Shown in pieces: positions 7,469-64,000 of a stretch of DNA of 64,000 bases. The stretch spans positions 118,679,734 through 118,743,733 of the forward strand of contig OW121741.1 in the NCBI GenBank assembly GCA_933228675.1, read 5' to 3'. The notes below the pieces were generated by a model. It was not told where the DNA came from and did not search any database. It saw only the letters and a list, made by a program, of their open reading frames with translations. The DNA is from Stomorhina lunata. Its lineage: Eukaryota; Arthropoda; Insecta; Diptera; Rhiniidae. How positions within the stretch are numbered: the stretch's first letter is position 1; every line of letters begins with the position of its first letter. A program made the translations under genes and the position numbers.

Positions 7469-9310
<1,842 letters not shown>

Positions 9311-10200
9311 TTTTTTTTTTTTTTGTAAAATCATTTTTATTTACAGTCATGTCATATATTTAGGTTACTATGTTTGAAAAGACCAAATCTTAGGTTCTCC
9401 TTAAATTTTTTTTTAACCCACCCCAACATTTCAATTTCATTGGCACAAAAATTAAAACTTTCACCAAATTTCTGCTACCAAATAAAAGAGAAACTGCATA
9501 TTTAAACATTTGACTAAAAGCAAAAGCTGCAAAGTAGAGTTGTCATGTCTTAAGATTCCTAAGTTCTATTAGACCTACTCCTCAGCTCTCCTCTACTTAT
9601 GAAAAAGCCACCCACCCCAACATTTCAATTTCATTGCCACTTAAGTTCAAAAAAAAAAAAAATTAAAACTTTCACTAAATTTCTGTTACCAAACGAAAAA
9701 GAGAAACTGCATATTTAAACATTTCAATTTAATTTCACATTTAAATCTCTACACTCGAGTGCAAAATACATACACTACAACTATAAATATTCAACGTATA
9801 TGTTGAATATATTATTTATTTAGTGTTGGTTCTTTTAGTTTTGTTGCTGCTGCATTTTTGGTTCTTGTTTTTTTTTTTAAGTTTTGGTCTCCTTCAAACC
9901 AAGTGATGGTGTTATTAAAAATATACAAGAATATATTTAACTATGCGAAATATTGGTTACCCTTCAATAAATTGCTATATATATACAATTGTAAATTGAT
10001 ATTTAGGTAATTCGTTTCCGATTCGTAATTCGTTTGACCGATTTAACAATTGTTGTCTTGGATTTTTAAATATTTAGTCATATTTTAATCACATTTCTTC
10101 ATAACAGAGGATATATTTGCAAAATATTTATTAATTTCGACATAATTAAACTGTAAATTCATTGTACTAAAATTTTGTTGTAGGTACTATTTAAAGTAAG
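9311..10200. other. AT-rich spacer with a direct repeat of about 100 bp
   Basis: Begins with the poly-T after the element at 7469-9310. Two diverged direct copies lie at 9417-9510 and 9610-9724: both begin with ACCCACCCCAACATTTCAA or close to it and end GAGAAACTGCATATTTAAAC. The second copy carries an inserted A-run at about 9648-9662. No gene seen. Confidence 0.65.
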
Positions 10201-12720: not shown

Positions 12721-14248
12721 CAGAAGAGTATGCTTTTCGAAAATTTAAGTTTTTTTTTTTGGAAAAATGGGCCGTGTAACCCCATTTATGTCCCAGCCCT
12801 ATCATATTTTTGCACAGACCTAACGAACTTGATACTTAGTATAATTGAGTAAAGAATTTTAATTTGAAAGTCCATAATCAAAATTTTTTACAGTTACAGA
12901 ACTTAATTTTTTATTCAAATATTTCTGATTTGCGACCACCGCTGGTAATATGATTGCATGTCTAAAATTATTCTAAATATTATTTACACGTATCTCTGAA
13001 GCCTATCCTGAGTAGTAGCGGTACTCAATCCCATTGGATTAGAAGCGCTGACGGAAATGCAAAATGAAACCAACCATGACTGTTTATTCAGTGGAATTTC
13101 AGACGCCCACCAACAATACAAGAAGTGAAGAATGCCATTAAAATCCTTAAGCGCAACAAGGCCCCGGGCAGTGACAATATTTCAGTGGAGATGCTTTTAT
13201 GTGACGTTGAAGGATCGGCGAGACTGTGGCACCCATTTATGCGTAAAATATGAGAAGAAGAAGCTCCTGGAATGAAGGTATACTAGTCAAAATACAAAAA
13301 AAAGGGTGACTCCAAAGACTGCAATAACTACAGGGGAAAAACACTTCTTCCAATACCGAGCAAAATACCAAGTCGAGTAATTTTGAATAGAACGTCTGAC
13401 GCAATTTCTTAAACACTCCGCGAAAATCAGTTTGGGTTCCGAGAGAATAGATCTTGTGTTGATCTAATCAACACAGTAAAAATATTGTAATGAATTCCGC
13501 ACCCCCATTTATCTAGCGTTTATCGACTTTACAATAGCCTTCGATAGTGTCAACAGGTGCTATCTATGGAGAATTTTAGAAAACCGTAACATGCCAACGA
13601 AAATTCTGAACTTAATTCTACATAAAGGTAAATTGTCTAATCCGTTGAAAGTTACTACTGGTGTAAGACAAGGATGTATATTATCACCTATACTTTTTAT
13701 CCTTGTCATCGACAATATAATGCGCACGGCACTGAATGGTAGACATGGTATCCAATGGACACCATTTAAGTAACTCCAGGACTTGGAATACGCCGACGAC
13801 GTATGTCTTCTAAGCCAAAGACCAGCTCACCTTCAAGAAAACACTAGCGCTATTACTGTTGAATCTCGGGCACCTGGGCTGGAAATCAATATTTCCAAGA
13901 CAAAGATTATGCCTGGAGGCTATGGCGCAAACACGTCGCCACACATCAATGTGGATAATGAGGGTATTGGATGTGTAGGTACCTTTAATTATCTTGGTAG
14001 CTTGGTATCTACAAAAGGTGGCGCCGACAAGGATATTGAATCGCATATTAATAAGACAAAATCTGCATTCGGCATTTTCCGAACTATATGGAAATCTCGG
14101 CATATATAAACAACAACTAAGTTACGAATATATAACTCGAATGTCAAGTCCATCTTGTATTACGGGTGCGAAACTTGGAAACGCACAAATGCCATCGATA
14201 AGCGCCTACAAACCTTTGCAGACAAATGCTTGCGGCAAATCTTTAATA

Positions 14249-15138
14249 TCGGGTGGTTAAATTTCAAGGGCCGATGTTGATTTTGAATAAAACACAAACT
14301 ATTTGGGAAATTATTGTAATTTTATTTTATTATGATGTATTGGTATTACTCAATTATGTATGGAACAAAATATCGGCCAAATGGGCGCCGCGACCGCAGC
14401 GACACACCTCCATCCGATGGTCCAAATTTACGATGATCCTGAGGCATAATGGAGGTTCTATGCCGTTAATGTGATGAATTATCTCATCCTTTAGCTCTTG
14501 AATTGTTGCTGGAATATTTTCTTTCAAATAACCCCAAAGAAAAAAATCCAACGGTGTCAAATCACATGATCTTGGCGGCGAATTGACATCGCCATTACGT
14601 GAGATAACACGGCCATTGAATTTGTTGCGCAAAAGAGCCATTGTTTCGTTAGCTGTGTGGCAAGTGGCACCGTCCTGCTGAAACCACATATCGTCCACAT
14701 CCATATCTTCCAATTTGGGCCATAAAAAGTTCGTTATCATCTCACGATAGCGAACACCATTCACAGTAACTGCCTGACCGGCCCCAGCTACACTATCGAG
14801 AACAGCAGCAATATTTTCTGCAGTACGAGCTGTACGAGCATGCACTGGTGTTCTCACATCTTCTACAGACCCGGTTTGCTCGAATTTTTCCACGATTTTT
14901 GCGATTGTACGCACAAATTGACCAAAAAAATCACGAAGTGCACGATATGCATTTTGATTTGAACGCCCATTTTCATAATAAGTCTGGATAACTTTAACAC
15001 GTTGTTGGATTGTGTATCTCTCCATGGTTCAAATTGAGTAAGTCTGAAATAGAGAAATGTCAAATAAAATTCGGAAAAAAACTTGGCGTTTAGGTGTGGT
15101 TCACATTCAACATCGGCCCTTACAGTTTAACCACCCTT
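14249..15138 (-). mobile_element. Internally deleted mariner-like DNA transposon
   Basis: Terminal inverted repeats of about 33 bp: left 14249-14281 and right 15106-15138 share GGGTGGTTAAA and AAGGGCCGATGTTGA. A TA dinucleotide flanks both sides (14247-14248 and 15139-15140), the target duplication expected for the IS630/Tc1/mariner superfamily. The element is inserted in the reverse transcriptase pseudogene on the opposite strand. Removing the element and one TA restores the RT reading frame exactly, which fixes the boundaries independently of the inverted repeats. Confidence 0.95.
14354..15025 (-). pseudogene. Mariner-like transposase with a deleted middle (223 codons)
   Basis: Open from an ATG at 15025 to a stop at 14354. 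Residues 1-60 form the N-terminal helix-turn-helix region (MERYTIQQRVKVIQTYYENG start). The C-terminal catalytic half follows, with WFQQDGATCHTA (Asp118) and RSCDLTPLDFFLWGYLK (Asp155), 36 residues apart. Compared with the related copy at 61641-62519, about 130 residues are absent between residues 79 and 84. They include the second helix-turn-helix and the first catalytic acidic residue (SDEAHF-type motif). The frame is preserved across the deletion, but the enzyme cannot be catalytic. Full-length relatives are about 340-350 residues. The C-terminus ends GAHLADILFHT, as usual for the group. Confidence 0.92.
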
Positions 15139-35760: not shown

Positions 35761-37065
35761 ACTATTTGTGAACCAGTCTTTTTTTTTTGTGGCTTTCTCA
35801 AAAACAAAATTTCTGAAATTTTTGAAATTTTACCTTTATAGTAAAATTTTTGAAATTTTACCTTTATAGTAAAATTTTTGAAATTTTACTATTTAAGGAA
35901 GGTTTTGAGAATATGAATATTTTTAGTAAAATATTCGATATGTTAAAATTTCTATATGAAATAAAATTAAATAATTTTGATATTTTAAACTTTTGTTAGT
36001 AGAAGTTTGCTATTTTCAAAAAATTCAAGAATGTATTTTTTTTTAATAACGGTAAGAATTTTGAATTGTTAAAGCTCTAAACAGACATTGAAAGTATTAT
36101 AATGGCAACTCTAGTTGTTAACTACATCATGTTCCTCTTCGAAAGTAAAAGCAAACACTAAAAGAAAGTGTTTTAACATATCTCACACAACTACAATGCA
36201 ACAAAAATGTAGACATCCATATAACAAAAAGTAACTATTTATGTTAAAATGTTATTTGTTTTCGCACCACAAACTATCAGAAACAATAGAAATAGAAAAT
36301 AATAACAAAAGCAAATGTAACATTAGCAGCAACAACTTAAATGCAAAAATAAGCAACAAAAACAAATAAAAAGTAACCTCGAATAACTTACGAAATTGGA
36401 TGAATGTTTTCTCTTAAGTATTCGCTAGTTCCTTTTTCTAAGCAGAAAAAGTCAAGAGAAAAAGTTCACTAAAGAATTTTCCTCAAACGCATACAAGTAG
36501 CAACACTTAAACGCTAGCGTTCGTTTATAGTTAAAATCTGATAAAGGAATGTAGTATAACTATTTTTAGTTTAAGCAATTATTTAGAAAATTTCAAGCTT
36601 GGCATAAAAAGGCTGCAGGCAGTGATTCAGAAATAAAACGCACATACATACTTAAATACATATATTGTATATGCGAAATATTTCAAAATTCAAACCTCGA
36701 AACTTTATGACGTAAATTTTTGGGTAAAGTTCTTTTTTCAACTTTAAGATATATGAGTCAAATACGTAAAAAGGTATAAAACTCGTATAGTTTTACCTTT
36801 AGTAGAGTTTGCCTCTATCTTGGCTTTGTATATTTTCATGCGTATGCATTCAGTATATGTATTTTTGAATTATGTAAAACATTCGTTGTCTACAGAAATT
36901 CTCAAGAAACAGCTCAAGTGCTAGTGGCACAGTTTTCCATAATGTTCAGCTTAGGAGTCAAGGTAGTCGCAGTTTTATATAAAAATAATGTTCTTAAAGT
37001 TATATGTTAAAATAATTTTTTATATAAAGAATTATTGTGTTTAAAGGGTTTAAAATATAAATTAT
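35761..37065. other. AT-rich spacer
   Basis: Has three short GAAATTTTACCTTTATAGT repeats at 35817-35895, then AT-rich sequence with scattered AACAA and CATACATA runs. No gene recognised. Confidence 0.6.
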
Positions 37066-38448
37066 TATACCCACCATCAAAAAGAATGGGGGGTATATTG
37101 AGATTGTCATTCCGTTTGTAATTTCCTTAATATTGGTTCAAAAATCAAAAACGATATATATTCTGAATCCTTATGAAATTCTAAGACGATTGAGCTATGT
37201 CCGTCTGTCTGTCCGTCTGTCTGTCTGTCCGTCTGTCTGTCTGTCTGTCTGTCTGTTGAAATCACGATAACGTCTAAACGAAAAGAGCTAGCTAACTGAA
37301 ACTTAGCAAAAACATTTTTTATCTATGAGAAAATTTTGGTATTGAAATTGGGCAAAATCGGTTAGCATTTGGCCATAGCTCCCGTATAACCTCGTCTAGG
37401 CTAATCGCTTATTTGCTAATAAATGACAAATTATGACAGTTATGATGACAAAATTTGGTATCTAGAAGTTTTAGATAAGCACTAGGCAGCATATAAAATT
37501 TCATCGAAATCGGTTCACATTTAGCCATAGCTCCCATACAAAAAACTTACGAAAACAGGCTAAATTTCACCCAAAATACACTTTAATGCCAATAAATCTA
37601 AAAGTATAACAGATATAACCACTAAATTTGGCACAAGAAAGTCTTATATCAATGCCAGCCAGTGTGCAAAATTTTGTCACAATCGGTCACTATTTGACCT
37701 AGCTCCCATATAAAAAAACTTACGAAAACACAAAAATTCAAAAAGAAAAGGGGATTTATGTCCGTCTGTCCGTCAGATAAAATCGTGATAGCTCCTTAAC
37801 TACAAGAGCTAGTAAGACTAAATTAAGCACAAAGAAGTCTTATGTCAATGCCAGCCAGTGTGCAAAATTTCGTCACAATCGGTCACCATTTGACCATAGC
37901 TCCCATATAAAAAACTTATGGAAACACAAAAATACATAAAGAAAAGGTTGTTTATGTCCGTCTGTCCGTCAGATAAAAGCACGATAGCGCCTTAACGAAA
38001 AGAGCTAGAGGGACAAAATTTTACAAAAGTATTTTGGATATCTTGAAAAAGATGTGTGTTGAAAATGGACAAAATCGGTTCAAATTTAGTTAGAGCTCCC
38101 ATATAACCCCGCCCCGGGAAACACATTAATGCTGATAAATTGAATACAATTGTAATAGCTATGACGATTAAATTTAAAATAGGGAAGTTTTATGCAATTT
38201 TTGATCAGTTTATCAAATTTTATAGGAATCAGTCCATATTTGACTTTAGCTTTCTTGTGAAAAACACTCACGGAAACCAAAAATTTTAGCAAAGGCCAGT
38301 TAAAAGCTATTAAATTAGAAACTATGATAGCTATGGTCACTAAATTTTGCAAGAATAAGCTCTCTATATATACCAGCCAGTGCGTAAAATTTTGTTATAA
38401 TCGGTCAACATTTGGCTATAATTCTTATATATATAACATCCCCTTTTT
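37066..38448 (+). repeat. Array unit 1 (1383 bp)
   Basis: Full unit with the 5' block, a short GTCY run and two tandem internal modules of 196 bp (GTCTTATATC at 37641 and GTCTTATGTC at 37837). Confidence 0.93.
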
Positions 38449-39821
38449 TATACCCACCATCAAAAAGAATGGGGGGTATATTGAGATTGTCATTCCGTTT
38501 GTAATTTCCTTAATATTGGTTCAAAAATCAAAAACGATATATATTCTGAATCCTTATGAAATTCTAAGACGATTGAGCTATGTCCGTCTGTCTGTCCGTC
38601 TGTCTGTCCGTCTGTCTGTCTGTCTGTCTGTTGAAATCACGATAACGTCTAAACGAAAAGAGCTAGCTAACTGAAACTTAGCAAAAACATTCTTTATCTA
38701 TGAGAAAATTTTGGTATTGAAATTGGGCAAAATCGGTTAGCATTTGGCCATAGCTCCCGTATAACCTCGTCTAGGCTAATCGCTTATTTGCTAATAAATG
38801 ACAAATTATGACAGTTATGATGACAAAATTTGGTATCTAGAAGTTTTAGATAAGCACTAGGCAGCATATAAAATTTCATCGAAATCGGTTCACATTTAGC
38901 CATAGCTCCCATACAAAAAACTTACGAAAACAGGCTAAATTTCACCCAAAATACACTTTAATGCCAATAAATCTAAAAGTATAACAGATATAACCACTAA
39001 ATTTGGCACAAGAAAGTCTTATATCAATGCCAGCCAGTGTGCAAAATTTTGTCACAATCGGTCACTATTTGACCTAGCTCCCATATAAAAAACTTACGAA
39101 AACACAAAAATTCAAAAAGAAAAGGGGATTTATGTCCGTCTGTCCGTCAGATAAAATCGTGATAGCTCCTTAACTACAAGAGCTAGTAAGACTAAATTAA
39201 GCACAAAGAAGTCTTATGTCAATGCCAGCCAGTGTGCAAAATTTCGTCACAATCGGTCACCATTTGACCATAGCTCCCATATAAAAAACTTATGGAAACA
39301 CAAAAATACATAAAGAAAAGGTTGTTTATGTCCGTCTGTCCGTCAGATAAAAGCACGATAGCGCCTTAACGAAAAGAGCTAGAGGGACAAAATTTTACAA
39401 AAGTATTTTGGATATCTTGAAAAAGATGTGTGTTGAAAATGGACAAAATCGGTTCAAATTTAGTTAGAGCTCCCATATAACCCCGCCCCGGGAAACACAT
39501 TAATGCTGATAAATTGAATACAATTGTAATAGCTATGACGATTAAATTTAAAATAGGGAAGTTTTATGCAATTTTTGATCAGTTTATCAAATTTTATAGG
39601 AATCAGTCCATATTTGACTTTAGCTTTCTTGTGAAAAACACTCACGGAAACCAAAAATTTTAGCAAAGGCCAGTTAAAAGCTATTAAATTAGAAACTATG
39701 ATAGCTATGGTCACTAAATTTTGCAAGAATAAGCTCTCTATATATACCAGCCAGTGCGTAAAATTTTGTTATAATCGGTCAACATTTGGCTATAATTCTT
39801 ATATATATAACATCCCCTTTT
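38449..39821 (+). repeat. Array unit 2 (1373 bp)
   Basis: As unit 1 but with a shorter GTCY run. Ends at the junction CATCCCCTTTT/TATACCCACC. Confidence 0.93.
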
Positions 39822-41205
39822 TATACCCACCATCAAAAAGAATGGGGGGTATATTGAGATTGTCATTCCGTTTGTAATTTCCTTAATATTGGTTCAAAAA
39901 TCAAAAACGATATATATTCTGAATCCTTATGAAATTCTAAGACGATTGAGCTATGTCCGTCTGTCTGTCCGTCTGTCTGTCTGTCTGTCTGTTGAAATCA
40001 CGATAACGTCTAAACGAAAAGAGCTAGCTAACTGAAACTTAGCAAAAACATTCTTAATCTATGAGAAAATTTTGGTATTGAAATTGAGAAAATTTTGGTA
40101 TTGAAATTGGGCAAAATCGGTTAGCATTTGGCCATAGCTCCCGTATAACCTCGTCTAGGCTAATCGCTTATTTGCTAATAAATGACAAATTATGACAGTT
40201 ATGATGACAAAATTTGGTATCTAGAAGTTTTAGATAAGCACTAGGCAGCATATAAAATTTCATCGAAATCGGTTCACATTTAGCCATAGCTCCCATACAA
40301 AAAACTTACGAAAACAGGCTAAATTTCACCCAAAATACACTTTAATGCCAATAAATCTAAAAGTATAACAGATATAACCACTAAATTTGGCACAAGAAAG
40401 TCTTATATCAATGCCAGCCAGTGTGCAAAATTTTGTCACAATCGGTCACTATTTGACCTAGCTCCCATATAAAAAACTTACGAAAACACAAAAATTCAAA
40501 AAGAAAAGGGGATTTATGTCCGTCTGTCCGTCAGATAAAATCGTGATAGCTCCTTAACTACAAGAGCTAGTAAGACTAAATTAAGCACAAAGAAGTCTTA
40601 TGTCAATGCCAGCCAGTGTGCAAAATTTCGTCACAATCGGTCACCATTTGACCATAGCTCCCATATAAAAAACTTATGGAAACACAAAAATACATAAAGA
40701 AAAGGTTGTTTATGTCCGTCTGTCCGTCAGATAAAAGCACGATAGCGCCTTAACGAAAAGAGCTAGAGGGACAAAATTTTACAAAAGTATTTTGGATATC
40801 TTGAAAAAGATGTGTGTTGAAAATGGACAAAATCGGTTCAAATTTAGTTAGAGCTCCCATATAACCCCGCCCCGGGAAACACATTAATGCTGATAAATTG
40901 AATACAATTGTAATAGCTATGACGATTAAATTTAAAATAGGGAAGTTTTATGCAATTTTTGATCAGTTTATCAAATTTTATAGGAATCAGTCCATATTTG
41001 ACTTTAGCTTTCTTGTGAAAAACACTCACGGAAACCAAAAATTTTAGCAAAGGCCAGTTAAAAGCTATTAAATTAGAAACTATGATAGCTATGGTCACTA
41101 AATTTTGCAAGAATAAGCTCTCTATATATACCAGCCAGTGCGTAAAATTTTGTTATAATCGGTCAACATTTGGCTATAATTCTTATATATATAACATCCC
41201 CTTTT
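39822..41205 (+). repeat. Array unit 3 (1384 bp)
   Basis: As unit 2 but with a private tandem duplication of about 23 bp near 40062-40107 (GAGAAAATTTTGGTATTGAA repeated) and a still shorter GTCY run. Confidence 0.93.
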
Positions 41206-42372
41206 TATACCCACCATCAAAAAGAATGGGGGGTATATTGAGATTGTCATTCCGTTTGTAATTTCCTTAATATTGGTTCAAAAATCAAAAACGATATATA
41301 TTCTGAATCCTTATGAAATTCTAAGACGATTGAGCTATGTCCGTCTGTCTGTCCGTCTGTCTGTCTGTCTGTCTGTTGAAATCACGATAACGTCTAAACG
41401 AAAAGAGCTAGCTAACTGAAACTTAGCAAAAACATTCTTTATCTATGAGAAAATTTTGGTATTGAAATTGGGCAAAATCGGTTAGCATTTGGCCATAGCT
41501 CCCGTATAACCTCGTCTAGGCTAATCGCTTATTTGCTAATAAATGACAAATTATGACAGTTATGATGACAAAATTTGGTATCTAGAAGTTTTAGATAAGC
41601 ACTAGGCAGCATATAAAATTTCATCGAAATCGGTTCACATTTAGCCATAGCTCCCATACAAAAAACTTACGAAAACAGGCTAAATTTCACCCAAAATACA
41701 CTTTAATGCCAATAAATCTAAAAGTATAACAGATATAACCACTAAATTTGGCACAAGAAAGTCTTATGTCAATGCCAGCCAGTGTGCAAAATTTCGTCAC
41801 AATCGGTCACCATTTGACCATAGCTCCCATATAAAAAACTTATGGAAACACAAAAATACATAAAGAAAAGGTTGTTTATGTCCGTCTGTCCGTCAGATAA
41901 AAGCACGATAGCGCCTTAACGAAAAGAGCTAGAGGGACAAAATTTTACAAAAGTATTTTGGATATCTTGAAAAAGATGTGTGTTGAAAATGGACAAAATC
42001 GGTTCAAATTTAGTTAGAGCTCCCATATAACCCCGCCCCGGGAAACACATTAATGCTGATAAATTGAATACAATTGTAATAGCTATGACGATTAAATTTA
42101 AAATAGGGAAGTTTTATGCAATTTTTGATCAGTTTATCAAATTTTATAGGAATCAGTCCATATTTGACTTTAGCTTTCTTGTGAAAAACACTCACGGAAA
42201 CCAAAAATTTTAGCAAAGGCCAGTTAAAAGCTATTAAATTAGAAACTATGATAGCTATGGTCACTACATTTTACAAGAATAAGCTCTCTATATATACCAG
42301 CCAGTGCGTAAAATTTTGTTATAATCGGTCAACATTTGGCTATAATTCTTATATATATAACATCCCCTTTTT
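41206..42372 (+). repeat. Array unit 4 (1167 bp, one module deleted)
   Basis: Only one of the two 196-bp modules is present. The retained sequence switches from the module-1 upstream flank (GGCACAAGAAAGTCTTAT) to module 2 (GTCAATGCCAGCC with CATTTCGTCAC-type sites), as expected for homologous recombination between the modules. Confidence 0.93.
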
Positions 42373-43745
42373 TATACCCACCATCAAAAAGAATGGGGGG
42401 TATATTGAGATTGTCATTCCGTTTGTAATTTCCTTAATATTGGTTCAAAAATCAAAAACGATATATATTCTGAATCCTTATGAAATTCTAAGACGATTGA
42501 GCTATGTCCGTCTGTCTGTCCGTCTGTCTGTCCGTCTGTCTGTCTGTCTGTCTGTTGAAATCACGATAACGTCTAAACGAAAAGAGCTAGCTAACTGAAA
42601 CTTAGCAAAAACATTCTTTATCTATGAGAAAATTTTGGTATTGAAATTGGGCAAAATCGGTTAGCATTTGGCCATAGCTCCCGTATAACCTCGTCTAGGC
42701 TAATCGCTTATTTGCTAATAAATGACAAATTATGACAGTTATGATGACAAAATTTGGTATCTAGAAGTTTTAGATAAGCACTAGGCAGCATATAAAATTT
42801 CATCGAAATCGGTTCACATTTAGCCATAGCTCCCATCAAAAAACTTACGAAAACAGGCTAAATTTCACCCAAAATACACTTTAATGCCAATAAATCTAAA
42901 AGTATAACAGATATAACCACTAAATTTGGCACAAGAAAGTCTTATATCAATGCCAGCCAGTGTGCAAAATTTTGTCACAATCGGTCACTATTTGACCTAG
43001 CTCCCATATAAAAAACTTACGAAAACACAAAAATTCAAAAAGAAAAGGGGATTTATGTCCGTCTGTCCGTCAGATAAAATCGTGATAGCTCCTTAACTAC
43101 AAGAGCTAGTAAGACTAAATTAAGCACAAAGAAGTCTTATGTCAATGCCAGCCAGTGTGCAAAATTTCGTCACAATCGGTCACCATTTGACCATAGCTCC
43201 CATATAAAAAACTTATGGAAACACAAAAATACATAAAGAAAAGGTTGTTTATGTCCGTCTGTCCGTCAGATAAAAGCACGATAGCGCCTTAACGAAAAGA
43301 GCTAGAGGGACAAAATTTTACAAAAGTATTTTGGATATCTTGAAAAAGATGTGTGTTGAAAATGGACAAAATCGGTTCAAATTTAGTTAGAGCTCCCATA
43401 TAACCACGCCCCGGGAAACACATTAATGCTGATAAATTGAATACAATTGTAATAGCTATGACGATTAAATTTAAAATAGGGAAGTTTTATGCAATTTTTG
43501 ATCAGTTTATCAAATTTTATAGGAATCAGTCCATATTTGACTTTAGCTTTCTTGTGAAAAACACTCACGGAAACCAAAAATTTTAGCAAAGGCCAGTTAA
43601 AAGCTATTAAATTAGAAACTATGATAGCTATGGTCACTAAATTTTGCAAGAATAAGCTCTCTATATATACCAGCCAGTGCGTAAAATTTTGTTATAATCG
43701 GTCAACATTTGGCTATAATTCTTATATATATAACATCCCCTTTTT
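42373..43745 (+). repeat. Array unit 5 (1373 bp, joined to the true 3' end)
   Basis: Full unit with two modules. Where earlier units restart with TATACCCACCATCAAAAAGA, this one continues TATATCTACAATCAAAAAGA and on into the 3' part of the element. Confidence 0.93.
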
Positions 43746-44240
43746 TATATCTACAATCAAAAAGATTTGGAGGTACATTCATTATATTAAGATTGCACCT
43801 ACGAAATTATGTAGGCATCAATCAATGTTCAGTCCAGACTTTATATATGATGAATGCATTAGGAACTCATAACGAAATATATGGACCTGTCGTATTACTA
43901 TTAACGTGTTTAGCCTAACTACATATTAATCACAACGAAAAGTATTTAACAACTTATTAATGTAAAACTATACCTGGTTATGAGACCGAATTTTGATCAA
44001 AGTAAATACTGGGGAAACCACTAAAATATTTTTGAATGTTGAACTATAAAGCTACGGAAACCTAATTTAGTCCAAAGGTTTTACCAACAATACCAAATAG
44101 CTTAGCGATTTTTCCAGTTTTGGTGCAGATTTTGAATTAGCTGCACCCTTGTAGATATATGAGATATGTTTCTAAATTTAACACAACTTGATGGTGGGTA
44201 TATAAGATTCGGCACAGCCGAATATAACACTCTTACTTGT

Positions 44241-61353: not shown

Positions 61354-62625
61354 TCGGGTGTTTTTTATTGAGGTATAGAACTTTAAGTTGGCATCACTTT
61401 TTTAACTGGCGGCCATTTTGTCAGCTGTTAAGTGATTAATATTTAGTTTGGTTTGCCATTTCATCATGAACAGGTTGACAAAAAAACAACGCTTGCAAGT
61501 CGTGCAAATTTATTTCGAAAATAATAGTTCAGTTCGCGAAGTTTACCGCAAGCTCCGTCCATTTTATGGTCGACATAATCGTCCATCAGAACAATTAATT
61601 CGGTTAACCATGGATCGTTTTCGCACTACGTTTACTCTATGTGCGCACCGAAGAAACAATTGCCGCTGTAGAGCAAAGTGTTGAAGAGGACCCGAATGAA
61701 TCGATTCGCCACCGTGCACAGCAATTGGAGCTTTGTCCATCAACTTTATGGAAGATTTTGCACAAAGATCTTGGCTTGCGACCTTACAAGATCCAGCTTG
61801 TGCAAGAATTAAAGCCGCGAGACAATGCAATGCGTCGTGATTTTGGTGTATGGGCCGAAAATGAGATTGATCTCGATGCTGATTTTCATCGCAAAATTTT
61901 GTTCAGTGGTGAGGCTCATTTTTGGTTGAATGGCTACGTCAACAAGCAAAATTGCCGCATTTGGAGTGAAGAGAATCCACATGAGACCCTTGAGACGCCA
62001 TTACATCCACAAAAACTGACTGTTTGGTATGCTCTATGGGCTGTTGGAGTCATTGGGCCATACTTCTTCCGAAATAATGCTGGAGAGTCAGTTACCATAA
62101 ATGGAGACCGGTATAGAGCCATGATAACCGACTATTTTGTTCCCCAATTGGATGAAATGAATGTGGATGAGTTGTGGTTCCAACAAGACGGCGTTACATG
62201 CCACACAGCGCACGTCACAATTGATTTATTGAAGGAAACATTCGATGAGCGCATAATTTCGCGGAATGGACCTGTCAATTGGCCACCAAGATCGTGCGAT
62301 TTGACACTACTGGATTATTTTCTTTGGGGATATGTGAAGTCGCTCATCTACGACAACAAACCAGAAACGTTAGGGGACTTGGAAGCCATTATTCGTGGCT
62401 TTATTGCCAACATACGGCCCCATATGCTCGAAAAAGTAGTTGAAAATTGGACCTGTAGAATTGGCTTTATTCGAGCCAGCCGCGGCGGCCACATGCCCGA
62501 AATCATATTTAAACATTAATGGCATAAAATTATCCTTCCAATAAAGCCAAATTGATGGAAATTAAAACGATTTTCTTGTGTTTTATTTCAATTCGAAGTT
62601 CTATACCTCTAAAAAAAACACCCAT
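61354..62625 (+). mobile_element. Mariner-like DNA transposon, nearly full length, inactive
   Basis: 1272 bp with terminal inverted repeats of about 33 bp: left TCGGGTGTTTTTTATTGAGG and right, read inward on the minus strand, ATGGGTGTTTTTTTTAGAGG; both continue TATAGAACTT. TA lies on both sides (61352-61353, 62626-62627). The flanks join to a satellite F unit when the element and one TA are removed, so the target was the satellite. The outer GGGTG is shared with the element at 14249-15138, but the rest of the repeat differs, so these are different subfamilies of one lineage. Confidence 0.95.
61448..62519 (+). pseudogene. Mariner-like transposase with frameshift and lost catalytic Asp
   Basis: The N-terminal part (61448-61630; MNRLTKKQRLQVVQIYFEN at the second Met, then RRK-type helix-turn-helix) ends out of frame. 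The rest continues in the frame of 61641-62519 (292 codons) from RTEETIAAVEQSVEEDPNES. A small deletion near 61630-61645 explains the shift and the loss of about ten residues. In the long frame are a second helix-turn-helix (STLWKILHKDLGL, about 35-47), the first catalytic motif changed to FSGEAHFWLNG (Gly90 where the family has Asp), WFQQDGVTCHTA (Asp183), and RSCDLTLLDYFLWGY (Asp220, 36 residues later). It ends GGHMPEIIFKH, close to the usual C-terminus. Two independent lesions make it inactive. Confidence 0.94.
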
Positions 62626-62946
62626 TACAAACATTTTTCTATAAAAAATTTTTCCTTAGAAATTTTTTTAATGCATTTTTTTATAAAAAATATTTTATAT
62701 CATACACATTTTTTTTTTCGAAAACTTTTCATGGTATGAAAATTTTTCTATAGAAAATTTTTTTTGGTATAAAAATGTTTCTATAGAAAATTTTTTATTG
62801 TATAAAATTTTTTCTATAGAAAATTGTTTATGCTATAAAAATTTTTCTATAGAAAAATTTTTGTGGCATAAAAAATTTTCTATAAAAAATTTTTTATCGT
62901 ATAAATATTTTTCAAAAAATAACAAATTAGTCGGGATGTAAATATT
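62626..62946 (+). repeat. Satellite F, middle block
   Basis: 32-bp units (TTTTTCTATAGAAAATTTTT plus a TATGGTATAAAAA linker) from 62628 to about 62918, then about 28 bases of other sequence (AACAAATTAGTCGGGATGTA) before the palindrome. Confidence 0.9.
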
Positions 62947-63229
62947 ATTCAAAAAGAAGTGTATTTGCATTTGATCCCAAATCTGTTACATTTATTTATT
63001 AATGTAACAGACCAATTTATTGATAAAAAGCCAAAAAATGTTTGCGGAGAAACTGTCTAAATTAGGGATAATCCTCCTGAAGAGATGGCTTAACCAACCA
63101 TCGAAACGCGTCGAGGAATTTGGTTTCTCCGCAAACATTTTTTGGCTTTTTATCAATAAATTGGTCTGTTACATTAATAAATAAATGTAACAGATTTGGG
63201 ATCAAATGCAAATACACTTCTTTTTGAAT
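62947..63229. mobile_element. Perfect 107-bp inverted repeat element with ribozyme loop
   Basis: Left arm 62947-63053 and right arm 63123-63229 appear to be exact reverse complements over 107 bp (outer ends ATTCAAAAAGAAGTG and CACTTCTTTTTGAAT; inner ends TTTGCGGAGAAAC and GTTTCTCCGCAAA). The loop is 69 bp (63054-63122). The arms are not satellite sequence and carry no ORF. The element sits inside satellite F, whose units resume right after the right arm. No certain target duplication; AAATATT occurs on both sides. A hammerhead-like motif fills the loop. It may be a solo terminal piece of a Penelope-like retroelement or a foldback element; this is inference. Confidence 0.85.
63059..63121 (+). 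ncRNA. Type I hammerhead ribozyme candidate
   Basis: All conserved core bases are present in order: CTGAAGA at 63077-63083 (CUGANGA box); stem II GATGG (63084-63088) with CCATC (63098-63102) and a 9-base loop; GAA at 63103-63105; A63106-T63111 as the obligatory first pair of stem III; and C63112 at the cleavage position. Stem I pairs TCCTC (63072-63076) with GAGGA (63113-63117), then an internal loop on the 5' side (63063-63071), then AAAT/ATTT. Stem III is minimal: A63106-C63107 with G63110-T63111 and a 2-base loop, or ACGCGT pairing with itself between two molecules. Short-stem-III hammerheads are known in Penelope-like retroelements and were reported to act as dimers. Predicted cleavage follows C63112. 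Activity is untested. Confidence 0.85.
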
Positions 63230-64000
63230 AAATATTTTTCTATAGAAAATTTTTTATGGTATAAAAATTTTTCTATAGACAATTTTTTATACCATAAAAC
63301 ATTTACCATAAAACTTGTTTAGCTTAAAATGATCTTGTTTAGCTTAAAATGTTTTATGGTATAAAAATTTTCCTATAGAAAATTTTTATGGTATACAAAT
63401 TTTTCTATAAAAATTTTTATGGTATACAAACTTTTCTATAAAAAAAATTTTATGGTATAATATTTTTTCTATAGAATTTTTTTTTTATGGTATAAACATC
63501 TTTTAGAGATAATTTTGTATGGTATAAACATTTTTTTATAGAAAATTTTTTAATGGTATAAAAACGTTTCTATAAAAAATTGTTTATCATATAAAAATGT
63601 TTCTATAGAAAATTTTTTATGGTATAAAAATTTTTCTATAGAAAATTTTTATGGTACAAAAATTTTTCTATAGAAAATGTTTTATGGTTCAAAAATTTTT
63701 CTATAGAAAATTTTTTATGGTATAAAATCGTTTCTATAAAAATATTTTTATGGTATAAAAATTTTCTTTAGAAAATTTTTAATGGTATACAAATTTTTCT
63801 ACAGAAAATTTTATATCGTACAAAAATTTTTTATAGAAAATTTTTTATGGCATAAAAATTTTTCTATTGAAAATTTTTTATGGTATACAAATTTTTCTAT
63901 AGAAAATTTTTTATGGTATAAACATTTTTCTATAGAAAATTTTTTATGGTTAAAAAATTTTTCTATAGAAAAATTTTTATGGTATAAAAATTTTTCTCTA
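63230..64000 (+). repeat. 32-bp minisatellite array (satellite F, right block)
   Basis: Units of about 32 bp: core TTTTCTATAGAAAA, then TTTTTTATGGTATAAAAA. It shares the palindromic core with satellite E but has TATGGTATA in the linker instead of TATCAAAA. Runs off the right edge of the window. Confidence 0.95.
63284..63367. repeat. 21-bp inverted repeat with internal 18-bp duplication
   Basis: TTTTTATACCATAAAACATT plus T (63284-63304) and its exact reverse complement at 63347-63367 mark an inverted satellite F piece. Between them CTTGTTTAGCTTAAAATG occurs twice in tandem (63314-63331 and 63333-63350, separated by one or two bases). Confidence 0.85.

Follow-up and report, generated by a model that had tools for sequence, protein, structure and literature searches.

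A type I hammerhead motif between the arms of a palindromic, probably Penelope-like insertion in Stomorhina lunata satellite DNA

A 314-bp insertion with inverted arms in a 33-bp satellite

The 64-kb stretch of Stomorhina lunata DNA that was analysed here (the window) contains a satellite with a repeat unit of 33 bp. Directly to the left of the satellite lies a transposase-like frame of 292 amino acids on the plus strand (61641-62519) with 7613 relatives, named DD41D or Tc3 transposase. Among the best 120 of these the closest was 95% identical, three from Musca autumnalis aligned with the entire query (100%) at 79-83% identity, and many of the named ones came from the spider Trichonephila clavipes. 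A comparison of the frame with Pfam at E-values up to 0.001 yielded no family.

The satellite is interrupted by an insert that is bordered by two copies of the 13-mer ATAAATATTTTTC (Table 1). In the 64 kb this 13-mer starts at 62901 and 63228 only, and it does not occur on the minus strand. On both sides of the insert the satellite consists of the same 33-bp unit in the same orientation. When the flanks were joined through a single 13-mer, 46 bp across the join matched the satellite unit at 96%, and the period-33 identity of 0.85 was the best among 61 shifts tried, the next best being 0.82. Because the satellite continues in phase once the flanks are joined, we concluded that 62914-63227 is an insertion with a 13-bp target-site duplication. 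About 85 bp to the right of the insert the satellite is interrupted once more, by a perfect 20-bp tandem duplication of 1.9 copies (63314-63351, CTTGTTTAGCTTAAAATGAT).

The insert is composed of a 35-bp tail, a 105-bp arm, a 69-bp segment with the hammerhead motif and a 105-bp inverted arm. The right arm abuts the duplication exactly, while the left arm is 35 bp away from it. Perfect complementarity extends over 109 of 109 bp (62945-63053 and 63123-63231) with 69 nt in between, just as the sequence-only reading had placed the motif, in the loop of a perfect palindrome. Among the perfect inverted repeats of the window whose arms are separated by no more than about 2 kb it is the longest; the runner-up has 46 bp and is located in AT-rich repeats. 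The outermost 4 bp of the 109 belong to the tail on the left and to the duplication on the right (63228-63231), so that the arm of the element itself measures 105 bp. A near-palindrome inside the arms (62983-63012, TCTGTTACATT...AATGTAACAGA) means that each arm alone is also able to fold as a hairpin.

In the window no further copies of the tail or of the 174-bp direct unit were found except the inverted arm and a short self-palindromic stretch of the arm. The arm pattern occurred at two loci in viral contigs, where no palindrome was visible by eye within 150 bp on each side. We discarded the identification of the palindrome as a microRNA precursor, since the best score was 117.2 bits with a cut-off of 245 and the matches reflect the long hairpin.

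Table 1. Positions of the features in and around the insertion, including the pLTR-like units (a comparison-based reading) and the parts of the hammerhead motif. PLE, Penelope-like element.
Feature	Position	Strand	Remarks
Target-site duplication, left copy, ATAAATATTTTTC	62901..62913	+	13 bp
Insertion in 33-bp satellite	62914..63227	+	314 bp; flanks rejoin in phase
Unpaired PLE-like tail	62914..62948	-	35 bp; outer end of inverted unit, between left duplication copy and left arm
Open frame through tail	62914..62970	-	19 codons; weak evidence
Inverted, shorter pLTR-like unit	62949..63053	-	105 bp; without hammerhead; exact reverse complement of 63123-63227
Direct pLTR-like unit	63054..63227	+	at least 174 bp; hammerhead near 5' end; pLTR reading by comparison with published PLEs
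Stem I, weak distal extension, AAAT/ATTT	63059-63062/63118-63121	+	
Type I hammerhead motif	63072..63117	+	core, stems and comparison with Rfam RF00163
Stem I, TCCTC/GAGGA	63072-63076/63113-63117	+	5 bp; open stem
C3-A9, CTGAAGA	63077-63083	+	direct reading
Stem II, GATGG/CCATC	63084-63088/63098-63102	+	5 bp; 9-nt loop CTTAACCAA
GAA	63103-63105	+	direct reading
Stem III, ACGCGT	63106-63111	+	self-complementary; zero loop
A15.1; U16.1; C17	63106; 63111; 63112	+	direct reading
Right arm	63123..63227	+	105 bp of direct unit; exact complement of left arm
Target-site duplication, right copy, ATAAATATTTTTC	63228..63240	+	13 bp

The hammerhead motif and its predicted folding

The segment between the arms carries on the plus strand the complete invariant core of a hammerhead ribozyme, i.e. 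CUGANGA, GAA, the pair A15.1-U16.1 and H17 (63077-63112). Every core position could be read directly, in agreement with the sequence-only reading, and the predicted cleavage site is the same as proposed there, between 63112 and 63113 after C17. Since stem III is self-complementary and has no loop, a single molecule forms only the A-U pair closed by a CGCG loop. In trans, ACGCGT could pair with a computed energy of -7.5 kcal/mol.

A descriptor that combined the core with three stems was applied to both strands of the window and detected a single motif. In window-like Markov sequence, 1910 Mb contained 44 motifs when stems I and II were at least 4 bp and stem III at least 2 bp, and 3 motifs when stems I and II were at least 5 bp. 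A Markov model of the segment 36001-50000 gave 13 and 3 motifs per 1620 Mb with the looser and the stricter stems, respectively; a smaller simulation gave 1 and 0 per 40 Mb, or 2 and 1 per 40 Mb at 50% GC. The number expected by chance in 2 x 64 kb is about 0.003 with the looser stems and about 0.0002 with stems I and II of at least 5 bp, and the earlier statement that a chance occurrence is unlikely was borne out. The core pattern by itself, with no stems required, turns up frequently by chance, with a mean of 12 per shuffled window.

The covariance model RF00163 (type I hammerhead) scored the motif with 23.1 bits. A match above threshold, proposed as a check in the sequence-only reading, was thus not obtained, the gathering cut-off being 34 bits. 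The E-value was 5.1e-4 on 73 nt against 4227 families and 4.1e-4 on 59 nt; as the former includes all 4227 families, the single-family estimate for the whole window is by arithmetic about 1e-4. The whole window compared with Rfam at gathering gave no match, and the hammerhead was absent among the matches listed for a search with 361 nt at E-values up to 10. In viral contigs the core pattern was found at eight loci, two of identical sequence. One of them (L001:1359-1414, IMG/VR contig IMGVR_UViG_3300028326_000328) is a hammerhead-like motif with stems I, II and III by eye and scored 23.0 bits with RF00163, likewise below the cut-off. Because this viral motif scores like the one in the insert, the RF00163 score neither proves nor excludes a hammerhead. 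The other seven loci had no Rfam match at gathering, where a 23-bit match would escape too, and the prokaryote genomes searched gave no match. Taken together, a hammerhead-type motif beyond chance at 63072-63117 is supported.

Folding predictions differed between the isolated loop and the insert. In the 69-nt loop alone stems I and II paired with predicted probabilities of 0.61-0.73, while in the 314-nt insert these were 0.08-0.12 and the minimum-energy fold contained neither stem. With the core kept unpaired, the hammerhead ensemble was worse than the whole ensemble by 1.2 kcal/mol in the loop and by 2.5 kcal/mol in segments of 101 and 287 nt, energies that take no account of tertiary contacts. 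The arms are thus predicted to favour a fold other than the hammerhead within the insert. The z-score of -4.24 for 63040-63140 was not used as evidence, because the arm ends account for at least part of it and the minimum-energy fold of the segment is not a hammerhead.

For two copies of the loop the minimum-energy structure was a double hammerhead with pair probabilities of 0.36-0.42 for stem I, 0.45-0.46 for stem II and 0.58-0.98 for stem III. Yet 199 of 500 shuffles reached the energy of this dimer, and it was dismissed as special evidence. In a dimer of the whole insert the arms paired between the molecules and four of the six stem III pairs formed, but stems I and II were absent. After a cut the arm duplex would still hold both halves together. 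Classic dimers need stem I in trans, and 105 bp of pairing in cis would hinder such a dimer. The earlier description as a functional-looking RNA found no backing: a loop is missing from stem III, and for stems I and II the predicted pairing drops from about 0.7 in the loop to about 0.1 in the insert. The hammerhead in this copy is probably weak or idle.

Relation to Penelope-like elements and alternative origins

The sequence-only reading held that no ribozyme family label follows from the surrounding sequence. On the contrary, the target-site duplication, the tail and the inverted arms point to the insertion of a Penelope-like retroelement (PLE). PLEs have inverted pLTR-like units arranged head to head with a palindromic junction, seen here in 105-bp exact inverted arms. 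The optional tail of 30-40 bp at one end has a counterpart in the 35 bp at the left end only, and the short target-site duplication in an AT-rich target in the 13 bp between flanks of 83% AT. Thus we favor the view that the AT-rich satellite received a short insertion of a PLE, or of a non-autonomous unit that PLE enzymes mobilised. Because the insert resembles a PLE fragment dropped into satellite DNA, the hammerhead probably belongs to an established family as a new member and is not a ribozyme of a new kind. Among the 25 open reading frames of at least 90 amino acids listed for the window, three of which were scanned against Pfam, no PLE reverse transcriptase or GIY-YIG domain was recognised.

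The accessible text of PMC3846280 describes a Penelope of Adineta vaga with a direct pLTR joined to a shorter inverted pLTR and a tail of 31 bp that extends one inverted pLTR at its 3' end. The duplications have 8-10 bp, or are missing in some copies, the targets are AT-rich, and palindromes at the head-to-head junction are attributed to self-priming. For PAc of Anolis the available part of PMC11167929 reports reverse transcription from two internal sites, the stretch between them being the 30-40-bp tail; PAc cuts and extends both target strands, and the element contains a hammerhead. Going by these texts, Pen2a_Av of A. vaga (PMC3846280) and PAc (PMC11167929) share with the insert a direct and a shorter inverted unit head to head, the palindromic junction, a one-ended tail of about 31-40 bp, a target duplication, an AT-rich target and a hammerhead. 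In contrast to both, the insert has neither an open reading frame nor a second direct pLTR. Its duplication is longer than those given for Adineta (PMC3846280), and its hammerhead lies about 105 nt upstream of a possible ATG, whereas that of PAc is described as overlapping the start of the open reading frame (PMC11167929). This ATG, 22 nt before the arm end, opens the 19-codon frame that runs through the tail. The frame resembles a rotifer pLTR plus tail as far as the latter is described in the accessible text; equally good frames occurred in 1942 of 18270 random stretches (10.6%), and we did not take it as special evidence.

Hammerheads in the pLTRs of PLEs have been published, e.g. in PMC11167929, and are described in the accessible literature as minimal and lacking helix III. 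The motif of the insert carries CGCG between A15.1 and U16.1, i.e. four extra bases in stem III when compared with this type. The type I hammerheads of axolotl retrozymes and amphibian satellites have the same single A-U pair and palindromic tetraloop and are of the dimer type, but are located in tandem repeats according to the part of PMC7229834 at hand, while the insert carries a single one at the tip of its palindrome. The repeat-type hammerheads of Aedes aegypti (PMC3088659) are also from an insect, reside in an interspersed repeat and have a palindromic stem III that permits a dimer. Their stem III is longer with a 10-bp dimer stem, and a palindromic insertion is not mentioned in the available portion of that paper. 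Type III hammerheads of Diptera, e.g. Musca domestica, are likewise from fly genomes; according to the accessible part of PMC7936874 stem III is open in these, unlike the type I motif of the insert with its open stem I. According to the accessible sources, each of three features has been published before: Penelope hammerheads, insertions with inverted pLTRs, and a stem III of the dimer type.

The insert could instead be the monomer of a metazoan non-LTR retrozyme, a small non-coding element that spreads via circular RNA, which folded back on itself at insertion. We consider this rather unlikely. The 314 bp, the low GC content, the lack of a long open reading frame and a target duplication of more than 4 bp would fit, and axolotl retrozymes, in the accessible text of PMC7229834, likewise have a stem III made up of a single A-U pair with a palindromic tetraloop. 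Yet retrozymes are described there as lying in tandem hammerhead repeats. The feature of tandem repeats of about 150-450 bp was not found, as the window has one motif and the size alone agrees; moreover, tail and inverted unit are marks of PLEs. Because PLEs are suggested, in the literature as far as available, to be helpers of retrozymes, the retrozyme and PLE readings overlap.

Arms that are 100% identical could also mean that a single-copy insertion became a palindrome later, by template switching during replication or by a fold-back error of the assembly, with GAAAC/GTTTC and stem I as a possible switch point. This is very improbable, since there is no gap between the right arm and the target duplication, and the satellite keeps its phase when the flanks are rejoined.

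Even less credible is a fold-back DNA transposon or MITE with the motif in its spacer. Long perfect inverted arms within a target duplication are to be expected from such an element, but inverted repeats that reach both copies of the duplication are not present since the left arm stops 35 bp short of it, the length of the tail. Besides, the spacer is a hammerhead, and a target duplication of 13 bp is long for a DNA transposon. A chance look-alike in an unrelated palindrome, for which the sub-threshold Rfam score, the presumably many windows read and the equal score of 23.0 bits for a motif singled out of a large set of phage sequences may be quoted, deserves equally little credence with about 2e-4 motifs expected in the window, the motif sitting in the spacer of the one long palindrome of the window and the insert being retroelement-like, of a class known to carry hammerheads.

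A possible part of stem I in integration

As a PLE-type insertion would explain the palindrome, the arms may be regarded as a by-product of integration. A PLE reverse transcriptase would have cut both target strands, and cDNAs would have started at two internal start sites, with and without the tail. Two antisense cDNAs, or one self-primed cDNA, may then have formed a head-to-head joint where stem I provides an inverted repeat, which would have left the perfect palindrome. If the source transcripts were tandem, the hammerhead would separate the units by cutting the RNA between them, probably in a dimer that pairs through ACGCGU. Penelope-associated hammerheads that act as dimers were reportedly described in a paper of 2017. 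The insert adds a probable insect example of the dimer-type hammerhead.

With its inner end at 63123, the inverted copy stops at the outer margin of stem I, and the predicted cleavage site is 10 nt away. Because stem I is an inverted repeat, it offers a pairing site for antisense cDNAs that started at the two cut strands of the target. It is conceivable, if distinctly unlikely, that the PLE hammerhead matters at the joining of DNA, with stem I pairing the antisense cDNAs and thus closing the head-to-head insertion. The 5' end of the RNA made by the ribozyme would also set where the inverted copy stops. If general, this idea would supply a function for the hammerheads, whose conservation in PLEs is puzzling, and would explain the shorter inverted pLTR of these elements. 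In the accessible part of a review, what hammerheads do in PLEs is described as unknown, and in vitro insertion by PAc did not need cleavage according to the available text of PMC11167929. A link of hammerhead stem I to the inverted junction was not found in the accessible open-licence literature. The insert comprises little beyond the joining region, with two units, one hammerhead, one tail and clean duplications, so that a stop of the inverted copy at the cleavage site or stem I can be tested in PLE-rich genomes.

Elsewhere in the window, a tandem array at 37062-43779 consists of units of about 1.4 kb with mutual identities of 94-99%; more diverged relatives of these units (83-85%) lie at 8235-9313. 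A frame on the minus strand (14354-15025) has a DUF4817 helix-turn-helix domain with 45.1 bits, and beside it on the plus strand lies a fragment of a reverse transcriptase (13783-14109), which scored 24.4 bits with a Pfam cut-off of 29.6 bits.
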